From: Trinickia soli
Lineage (GTDB): Bacteria > Pseudomonadota > Gammaproteobacteria > Burkholderiales > Burkholderiaceae
Assembly: GCF_002879855.1 (NCBI RefSeq)
Contig: NZ_PNYB01000015.1
Location: 1-64,000 of the forward strand
Length of the DNA stretch: 64,000 nt
Direction of reading: 5' to 3'
Shown one piece after another: positions 5,063 to 5,889 of the stretch. The position numbers and the translations under genes were made by a program. How positions within the stretch are numbered: position 1 is the stretch's first letter; each line of letters opens with the position of its first letter. Below the pieces are notes generated by a model that was not told where the DNA came from, ran no database searches, and was given only the letters and a program-made list of their open reading frames with translations.

Positions 5063-5225
5063 TGCCGCTGATTTACGGGCCGATAAAGCCGACGTTTGTT
5101 GAAGCGTTCAGCGTGTTCAAGCCTGCAGCATTGGCATTTTCTGGGTACGCTTTGACGGGCAACTCAGGACCGCCCTGATGGGAACGCGATACCGGTTCCT
5201 TTACCCGTTTCCGTCTCACTGACGA

Positions 5226-5366
5226 GCGCCACTCGCCTTTTCCCAGGTTGACCTGCGGCCATTCGGCCTGCCGCAGATCGCCGGGGCGCACCAATAATAT
5301 CGGCGCGAGTTTGAGCGCGCAAATCACAGGGAAGGCGCACGAGAACCTGCCGGACAAGCGCCGCAG
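5226..5366 (-). pseudogene. Tyrosine recombinase (P4-type integrase) fragment
   Basis: A minus-strand stretch encodes about 47 residues resembling the catalytic-domain entry of P4-type integrases: a block ending ALKLAPILLVRPGDLRQAEW, then a ...NLGKGEWR stretch. The block includes the family's conserved Arg in VRPGDLR. Both flanks lose similarity. A further in-frame piece with NTLNA (about 5100-5140) may be more of the same gene but is uncertain. No start, no C-terminal R-H-R-Y box and no full-length integrase exist, so it is a relic. Its place just beyond the 3' end and terminator of tRNA-Leu fits an island that once integrated at this tRNA. Confidence 0.6.
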
Positions 5367-5431: not shown

Positions 5432-5473
5432 AAAGAAACAAAAAACCCCGCAAGACCGTGATCTGGCGGGGTT
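5432..5473 (-). terminator. Rho-independent terminator after tRNA-Leu
   Basis: On the minus strand an 8-bp stem (arms 5466-5473 and 5444-5451, AACCCCGC/GCGGGGTT) is followed by a T-rich run ending near 5432. It lies about 37 nt past the tRNA CCA end and is the natural terminator of the tRNA transcript. Confidence 0.85.
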
Positions 5474-5509
5474 CTTCGGAACACATCGGCACAAGCCGAA
5501 ACATATCCA

Positions 5510-5889
5510 TGGTGCCCGGGACCGGACTCGAACCGGCAAGCCGTAAGGCGGCGGATTTTCGTCACACTGCATCTTTCGATGCCGGCGATGCGAACATCGC
5601 CGTTCGTGCGCTGGACTATGCCTTCGCCGTCGCATCGCACACGTGGCACTCGTGCGCGACGCATTAGGCGCCCCCCGTCTAGTCTCTACACCTTCCGCGA
5701 AACGGACCACGATTCAGGCCGCGTTTTCGGGCTTGGCTCGGCGTTGCCTCGGCGCACTTGATGTCGTCTTGCTTGCGCAAGCGCAGGCGCCAGGGGGTTC
5801 ACCGAATTTGAAGGGTTCTGCACCGACCGTTTCCAGCCGGGCACTCAATTGCTTAAGTCCGCTATGTTTACCAATTTCATCACCCGGGC
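5510..5889 (-). tRNA. tRNA-Leu(UAA), split by a group I intron in the anticodon
   Basis: Exon 1 is 5889-5855 (35 nt): acceptor GCCCGGG, D arm with stem ATG/CAT, anticodon stem GCGGA and loop start CTT. Exon 2 is 5559-5510: AAAA, stem TCCGC, a variable arm typical of a class II tRNA, T arm with TTCGAGT, acceptor CCCGGGC, discriminator A and encoded CCA (5512-5510). The acceptor pairs in all 7 positions. Joining the exons gives a 7-nt loop CTTAAAA, so the anticodon is UAA (decodes UUA/UUG). The intron lies between U34 and A35, so the tRNA is unusable without splicing. A whole-gene tRNA finder would see only the 3' half. Confidence 0.93.
5560..5854 (-). ncRNA. Group I self-splicing intron in tRNA-Leu(UAA)
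   Basis: A 295-nt intron bounded by exon 1 ending in U and an intron 3' terminal G (5560), as group I introns require. The internal guide GAGU can pair with exon ACUU, giving the splice-site U-G wobble. Core segments match what I recall of the Azoarcus tRNA-Ile intron: GGCAACGCCGAGCCAAGC (5748-5731), GAAGGTGTAGAGACTAGACGG (around 5695-5675) and GAAGGCATAGTCCAG (5625-5611). It contains no credible homing endonuclease, so it is a minimal ribozyme. The insertion point U34/A35 is the one used by cyanobacterial tRNA-Leu(UAA) introns. It should fold and splice on its own; that is inference from family chemistry. Confidence 0.92.

Follow-up and report, generated by a model that had tools for sequence, protein, structure and literature searches.

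Group I introns in bacterial tRNA genes

Group I introns interrupt tRNA genes of cyanobacteria and of alpha- and beta-proteobacteria, according to passages of a review of the subject (PMC4033280). Acidovorax and Burkholderia have such introns in tRNA-Ile2, as the authors of tRNAscan-SE noted (PMC8450103), and a 2025 database is described as holding 42,459 group I introns (PMC11835236). Among the closest relatives of the intron described here are those in the tRNA-Arg(CCU) genes of alpha-proteobacteria such as Agrobacterium and Bartonella (intron BbgpI), which share its IC3-like core and its position after a U in the anticodon loop, and differ in following U36 of tRNA-Arg(CCU) rather than U34 of tRNA-Leu(UAA). 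Excerpts of the Bartonella study (PMC7717549) report that a tRNA scanner misses the gene until the intron is removed, and that BbgpI splices in vivo and self-splices in vitro.

Other relatives share either the tRNA or parts of the core. The intron of cyanobacterial and plastid trnL genes occupies the same tRNA and the same insertion site as the intron studied here, a correspondence already pointed out for the cyanobacterial introns in an earlier note on this locus. The Azoarcus-type intron of tRNA-Ile(CAU), for which beta-proteobacterial Ile(CAU) introns stand in this analysis, belongs to the same class and is nearly identical in two core segments, but it follows U36 and has another P1-P2 and another 3' end. 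Outside the cyanobacteria, the leucine site is reportedly occupied in a deep-subsurface gamma-proteobacterium, in a tRNA-Leu(UAA) intron that Vepritskiy et al. are said to have described in 2002. In the literature searched, whose coverage extends to few subscription papers, we found no report of introns in the Leu(UAA) or Leu(CAA) genes of Burkholderiaceae. The intron described below is a conserved, easily missed member of this known ribozyme family, and is not peculiar to the genome in which it was noticed.

A split tRNA-Leu(UAA) gene in Trinickia soli

The window, a stretch of 64,000 nucleotides from Trinickia soli, contains a tRNA-Leu(UAA) gene on the minus strand (5889-5510; 380 nt including the encoded CCA). 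The earlier note had placed in it a 295-nt intron between U34 and A35, in a Burkholderiaceae-like genome. That insertion point and length are recovered by ARAGORN in intron mode and agree with the sequence, and the family relatives of the genome indeed include Mycetohabitans and Candidatus Vallotia. The parts of the gene and its downstream neighbours are:

5855 to 5889, minus strand: 5' exon of tRNA-Leu(UAA), 35 nt, ending in CUU with U34 at the splice site (ARAGORN and sequence)
5560 to 5854, minus strand: group IC3 intron, 295 nt, with omega-G at 5560 (ARAGORN, RNAalifold, covariation and sequence)
5510 to 5559, minus strand: 3' exon AAAAUCCGC..., 50 nt, with the long variable arm, the T arm and the encoded CCA
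5436 to 5476, minus strand: intrinsic terminator just downstream of the tRNA (-20.5 kcal/mol, z -4.58; none of 200 shuffles folds as stably)
5205 to 5347, minus strand: remnant, lying outside the intron, of an integrase gene of the tyrosine type; its DNA is 77.6% identical to that of an integrase adjoining this tRNA in a sister genome

In intron mode, ARAGORN calls a tRNA-Leu(taa) with a 295-nt intron in the anticodon loop and draws a full cloverleaf; after splicing, the loop reads C-U-U-A-A-A-A. In default mode the same program reports no tRNA in the window, so that the expectation that tRNA finders would miss the gene holds for the default settings and fails for the intron mode. The intron is too short to hold a homing endonuclease gene, as are the introns of 214-315 nt in 19 intron-bearing genes of the family.

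The terminator at 5476-5436, which was missed by a simple terminator scan, directly follows the tRNA, and the tRNA thus looks like a single-gene unit. A simple promoter scan of the minus strand found none; a TAGAAT that the eye picks out 12 nt ahead of the tRNA is not counted as evidence. The flanking genes are ordinary, with eutB/eutC on one side and an AraC-type regulator on the other.

The integrase fragment bears on the history of the downstream side of the gene. In the sister genome (G004; L050, 108-1443), integrase open reading frames lie directly downstream of the same tRNA, one matching PF00589 and another Arm-DNA-bind_3, while a Pfam search of the remnant at 5205-5347 gave no hit. When the window was searched for an att repeat matching the tRNA 3' end, nothing but the tRNA came up, and the fragment is therefore a remnant without visible borders. 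Because of its identity to the sister integrase, the 3' side of the tRNA-Leu(UAA) gene was probably once an integration site, of which this remnant has been kept.

Structure and covariation of the intron

The elements of the intron are:

5843 to 5846, minus strand: internal guide sequence GAGU (P1), pairing with exon ACUU (5858-5855) and forming U-G at the 5' splice site
5823 to 5841, minus strand: P2 hairpin with a GAAA loop (RNAalifold, covariation and sequence)
5810 to 5815, minus strand: 5' strand of P3, pairing with 5676-5671 (100% of cells paired, double changes in 4 of 6 pairs)
5731 to 5748, minus strand: 3' strand of P5/P4 and 5' strand of P6, GGCAACGCCGAGCCAAGC (covariation, string counts and sequence)
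5675 to 5692, minus strand: J6/7, 5' strand of P7 and start of the 3' strand of P3, GGTGTAGAGACTAGACGG (covariation and sequence)
5611 to 5625, minus strand: region of the 3' strand of P7, GAAGGCATAGTCCAG (covariation, string counts and sequence)
5569 to 5582, minus strand: hairpin GCAUC-GAAA-GAUGC of the branched P9 domain (RNAalifold, covariation and sequence)

The intron has the two terminal marks of a group I intron, a U-G pair at the 5' splice site and a final G (at 5560). All 55 pairs of the structure are standard in the window, including the core helices P3-P8 and P7. Alignment of 19 Burkholderiaceae genes led RNAalifold to P1, P2, P3, P4, P5, P8 and the branched P9, and the splice-site U-G is present in all 19. 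Covariation was measured over 22 diverse introns of our own choosing, against a structure written from the window that includes the P3/P7 pseudoknot. In these, 94.5% of the cells are paired, versus 80.0% in shuffles and 29.2-43.2% in slid versions of the structure, the slid control being one that flatters the figure because the structure was taken from one row. The double changes are independent of that bias: 29 of the 55 pairs have changed on both sides, and none of 500 shuffles reaches any of the five measures. P3, P6, P7 and P8 are paired in 100% of cells across the 22 sequences, and in P7, where 2 of 5 pairs are doubly changed, 6 of the 22 carry G-C/C-G instead of C-G/U-A at two neighbouring pairs of the guanosine site. 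The 5' splice-site pair is U-G in 19 of these introns and C-G in the other three.

The generic covariance model responds poorly to this class. Run on the locus, as had been proposed, Rfam RF00028 scores the intron at 22.8 bits (E 0.0013, search over 601 nt), which falls below the gathering score of 50; at the gathering score there is no match in the window, and a search of the whole genome with E up to 10 returned none. Eight control loci with introns of the class were drawn from cyanobacteria and from alpha- and beta-proteobacteria, and of these the cyanobacterial locus alone passed (96.3 bits). The low score thus appears to reflect a blind spot of the model, since seven of the eight controls fail as well, and the evidence for a group I intron comes from the structure. 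With its core helices present and strong covariation in relatives, the feature is confirmed as a group I intron, and its 295 nt, the lack of P5abc, the simple P5 extension, the location in an anticodon loop and the core strings of the class place it in subgroup IC3.

Splicing and the decoding of UUA

Each of the genome's 49 tRNA hits was assigned an identity, and the leucine anticodons among them are CAA (one), CAG (two), GAG (one) and UAG (one). A second, intact tRNA-Leu(UAA), which the earlier note had asked about, is not found among the 49; this is strong but not final, given that the assembly is in 103 contigs and a copy in a gap is conceivable. UUA codons are in use, with five in the 9 window open reading frames examined, two of which we take to be motility genes. 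The decoding of UUA requires tRNA-Leu(UAA), and since no other such gene was found, splicing of the intron is very probably needed by the cell. The same genome also encodes an 88-nt tRNA that combines a long variable arm with a CAU anticodon (G000:C30:53427-53511, L019).

From sequence and comparison together, it is highly probable that the only tRNA-Leu(UAA) gene of the cell holds a functional group IC3 intron. The transcript would end at the stem-loop at 5476-5436 and fold into a P1-P9 ribozyme, in which guanosine bound by P7 would attack after U34 and the freed U34 would then attack after omega-G, joining the exons into a tRNA whose UAA anticodon serves UUA codons. No mobility gene is carried by the intron, which is retained within its genus and polymorphic in the wider family, with exact empty sites, and which belongs to a large proteobacterial set of anticodon-loop introns. 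The anatomy, the covariation, the failure to find a second copy, the conservation and the empty sites are observed; we infer that the window copy splices itself, that the tRNA is essential and that the intron has descended within the genus.

Perhaps the gene is instead a dead one, with a decayed intron that no longer splices, and the low generic Rfam score could be read in that way; but the core helices are intact in the window and covary strongly, no other reader of UUA occurs among the 49 tRNA hits, and the intron motif is kept in every genome of the genus (see below), all of which makes a relic highly improbable. A dependence on a protein cofactor, such that the RNA alone would not splice, also seems rather unlikely. 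The Azoarcus tRNA intron, which is compact as well, self-splices in vitro. So does the compact Bartonella tRNA intron (see above), although general statements about group I introns, in parts of two papers (PMC3984707, PMC7717549), speak for protein help.

Distribution and empty sites in the Burkholderiaceae

The distribution of the intron was followed with a 20-nt intron motif, AAGGTGYAGAGASYMGACGG. The motif is present in 11 of 11 genomes of the window's genus, in 102 of 249 genomes of the family (113 matches, in 17 of 25 genera), and in 5 of 274 genomes of the class, the window's own genome being one of the five. Seventy of the 113 family matches were read, and they comprise 54 Leu(UAA), 11 Leu(CAA), 3 Met/Ile(CAU) and 1 Thr(UGU) genes, plus one called Ile(UAU). 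This intron-bearing tRNA-Ile (L432, G247:C1:1570800-1571400) has the anticodon UAU, as against CAU in its relatives.

The pattern of the empty site, an intronless tRNA-Leu(UAA), is found in 81 of the same 249 family genomes and in none of the 11 of the window's genus. Occupied and empty sites divide individual genera in different ways. All 30 genomes of genus g12 carry the motif and none of them the empty site. Genus g21 is split: 16 of its 29 genomes have the motif (the 8 of these that were read are all Leu(UAA)), the 13 others have the empty site, and no genome has both. In genus g11 the motif occurs in 3 of 30 genomes, each of the three read as Leu(UAA); 26 genomes have the empty site and one has neither. 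In the 11 intron-bearing genes read from g21 and g11, the exons flanking the intron are identical to the 28-nt empty site, so that gain or loss of the intron has been exact to the base. The gene also occurs on plasmids: in Mycetohabitans and Candidatus Vallotia the intron-bearing gene is plasmid-borne, with most of the query in 13 plasmid records, on one of which ARAGORN was run; the gene table for these records contains no RNA genes of any kind.

Type B introns and tRNA-Leu(CAA)

Some members of the family carry introns with another P7 sequence, here called type B, in Leu(UAA) and also in Leu(CAA) genes. Leu(CAA) introns were found in 12 genes (11 of the 70 matches read, plus one in the endosymbiont genome G017), distributed over five genera (g8, g10, g17, g21 and g25) and present in 7 of 8 sampled g8 genomes. 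Their loci are:

G017, chromosome C1, about 594091 to 594410 (L318): Leu(CAA) intron, predicted C at -1
L398-L405, L411, L413 and L415: Leu(CAA) introns, predicted C at -1

When the Leu(CAA) loop is rebuilt as CUC/AAAA, with the slash at the predicted boundary, C34 lies at -1 opposite the guide G and would form C-G rather than U-G at the 5' splice site. The nearest alternative boundary would leave an intron ending in A and an anticodon for Phe. The three C-G pairs among the 22 covariation introns are those of the three Leu(CAA) rows. According to Hur and Waring (1995), C-G at the 5' splice site is reportedly known from two group I introns.

The endosymbiont has a genome of 1.2 Mb. All 41 of its tRNA hits were identified and 0 of the 41 reads UAA, the intron-bearing gene being its only Leu(UAA). 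Its intronless leucine tRNAs have only the anticodons CAG, UAG and GAG, which means that its only UAA gene and its only CAA gene are both intron-bearing.

Related introns in other bacteria and in phages

Pattern scans brought up at least 119 stretches from named genomes and at least 120 from viral contigs, counts that are to be taken as samples. Among the matches listed, Leu(UAA) after U34 accounts for 73 of 120 genome sites and for 72 of 120 viral ones, as judged by ARAGORN and a rule-based re-call that was applied because ARAGORN at first often assigned Leu genes to Ser, Tyr or Phe. The same matches include Arg(CCU) after U36 (10 genome sites), Ile/Met(CAU) after U36 (6 genome and 4 viral sites) and Thr(UGU) after U34 (3 genome and 2 viral sites); the remaining sites are assorted ARAGORN calls, with isotypes as called, and ARAGORN gave no call at 12 of 120 genome and 30 of 120 viral sites. 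By their record titles, the hosts among the matches listed are alpha- and beta-proteobacteria, cyanobacteria and a few Acidobacteria, many of the records being metagenome bins that are possibly misbinned. An intron at the Leu(UAA) site is thus widespread among alpha- and beta-proteobacteria and is also present in some Acidobacteria and in phage contigs. The class is represented as well in tRNA-Thr(UGU) after U34, including Massilia and Thiobacillus records (L135, L140, L197), and in tRNA-Thr(GGU) after U36 in alpha-proteobacteria (L084, L136).

Until 2014 all phage introns had been found in protein genes, according to a portion of a review from that year (PMC3984707). The viral and phage loci with introns of the present class are:

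L198-L317, L438, L439 and L440: intron loci in viral contigs and phages, same intron class

In a 735-kb uncultured phage, whose record is without annotation, ARAGORN finds an intron-bearing tRNA-Leu, and it finds another in Agrobacterium phage Atu_ph07 and an intron-bearing tRNA called as Lys in Gordonia phage Daredevil, no tRNA feature being listed for the stretch in either of these two records. Nine large open reading frames from eight viral loci were compared with PHROGs: six match families and three match none, and only two of the matches are phage-specific, a tail fibre (L220) and an RIIA lysis inhibitor (L211); an endonuclease, a protease, a tRNA nucleotidyltransferase and a ferrochelatase make up the rest. 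When the window gene was compared with the phage collection, no intron was found, only pieces resembling the 3' exon in 3 records.

Origin of the leucine intron

The earlier note had offered two histories for the intron, a move of an Azoarcus-type ribozyme to the leucine site or an ancestry shared with the cyanobacterial introns. The comparison by phylogeny that it called for used 123 chosen introns and 220 columns with midpoint rooting; the alpha-proteobacterial Leu rows were halved, the viral rows were reduced in number, rows with odd sites were left out along with seven near relatives of the window, and 16 rows were added. In the best tree, introns of the window's type form one clade (100/98) and type B introns another (100/98), and the two are joined (99/84) within a broad, weakly resolved Leu(UAA) group of alpha-proteobacteria, Acidobacteria and others, which also holds the alpha-proteobacterial Arg(CCU) and Thr introns. 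The viral Leu row L304 adjoins the window-type and type B introns at 83/88, and is placed elsewhere in another tree. The Ile(CAU) introns have their own clade elsewhere (100/100), near the beta-proteobacterial Arg(CCU) introns, the beta- and gamma-proteobacterial Arg introns lying nearer to Ile(CAU) than the alpha-proteobacterial ones, and the cyanobacterial Leu introns form a further separate clade (100/100). These details are unstable, as the beta-proteobacterial Arg(CCU), Thr and some viral rows shift between three trees. The two histories are not rejected by the AU test (see below), but the choice between them leaves out the option that is best placed, a proteobacterial Leu(UAA) lineage.

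In the first of the two histories, an Azoarcus-type Ile(CAU) ribozyme would have transposed to the leucine site, perhaps with a later exchange of the P1-P2 and P9 ends. The three core strings that had been matched to the Azoarcus intron are each present once in the window; two of them are indeed Ile(CAU)-like, while the third is general to the class (25 of 25 alpha-proteobacterial Leu introns and 10 of 10 Arg introns). Thus GGCAACGCCGAGCCAAGC occurs in 14 of 20 window-type and 6 of 11 Ile(CAU) introns and in 0 of the other 92 rows, and GAAGGCATAGTCCAG in 19 of 20 and 11 of 11, respectively, and in one of the other 92, a viral row. Ile(CAU) is also the closest outside group, narrowly, in the P5/P4/P6 segment (0.87 versus 0.86 for type B) and in the P8/P7 3' segment (0.93 versus 0.91 for alpha-proteobacterial Leu), and a clade of window-type and Ile(CAU) introns is not rejected by the AU test for the whole intron (p 0.322, or 0.366 with type B included), the core (p 0.18) or the ends (p 0.279). 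Against this stand the best tree and a core-only tree that likewise joins window-type with type B (98/99); a tree of P1-P2 plus P9 sets these two apart, though their joining is not rejected (p 0.155). Moreover, Ile(CAU) is the most distant of all groups in P1-P2 (0.36) and P9 (0.18), where alpha-proteobacterial Leu reaches 0.64 and 0.53. The branched P9 tail, searched with a regular expression written after the sequences had been viewed, is found in 31 of 31 beta-proteobacterial Leu introns, 12 of 25 alpha-proteobacterial Leu, 6 of 10 Arg, 3 of 3 Thr and 4 of 7 viral Leu introns, but in 0 of 11 Ile(CAU) and 0 of 15 cyanobacterial Leu introns. On this balance a transposed Ile(CAU) ribozyme is unlikely, and such a move is not needed to account for the sequence.

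That the window intron and the cyanobacterial and plastid trnL intron come from one ancestral tRNA-Leu(UAA) intron is suggested by the identity of tRNA and site, and the AU test does not reject the corresponding clade (p 0.108, or 0.187 with type B). But the separate cyanobacterial clade, the lower mean identity to the window (0.54, as against 0.68 for alpha-proteobacterial Leu), the missing P9 tail and the rarity of the motif in the class outside the family make this descent quite improbable; the one cyanobacterial intron tested differs in passing Rfam as well. We read the window intron as a case of descent within the proteobacterial Leu-type introns, in which the Ile-like core segments may be ancestral, convergent or exchanged.

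Implications for leucine decoding

The window's genus probably depends on a ribozyme to make an essential tRNA. More broadly, an essential tRNA in a large beta-proteobacterial group appears to be ribozyme-dependent, in a gene that default ARAGORN and Rfam at the gathering score both missed in the window, and a gene split in this way could explain tRNA-Leu(UAA) genes that are apparently absent. A wider reading is plausible, and we offer it tentatively: that in the Burkholderiaceae a lineage of ribozymes is now a permanent component of leucine decoding; that a sister lineage spread from Leu(UAA) to Leu(CAA), changing U-G to C-G, in members of five genera; that both the only UAA and the only CAA tRNA of an endosymbiont depend on ribozymes; and that introns of the same class also move about in phage tRNA genes, which could carry them from host to host. 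If confirmed, the C-G sites of Leu(CAA) and the endosymbiont with both genes split would be new variants. The tRNAs for Leu (UAA and CAA), Ile, Arg and Thr that hold introns, together with exact empty sites inside a single genus and copies in phages, provide natural replicates in which the movement and persistence of bacterial group I introns may be tested.
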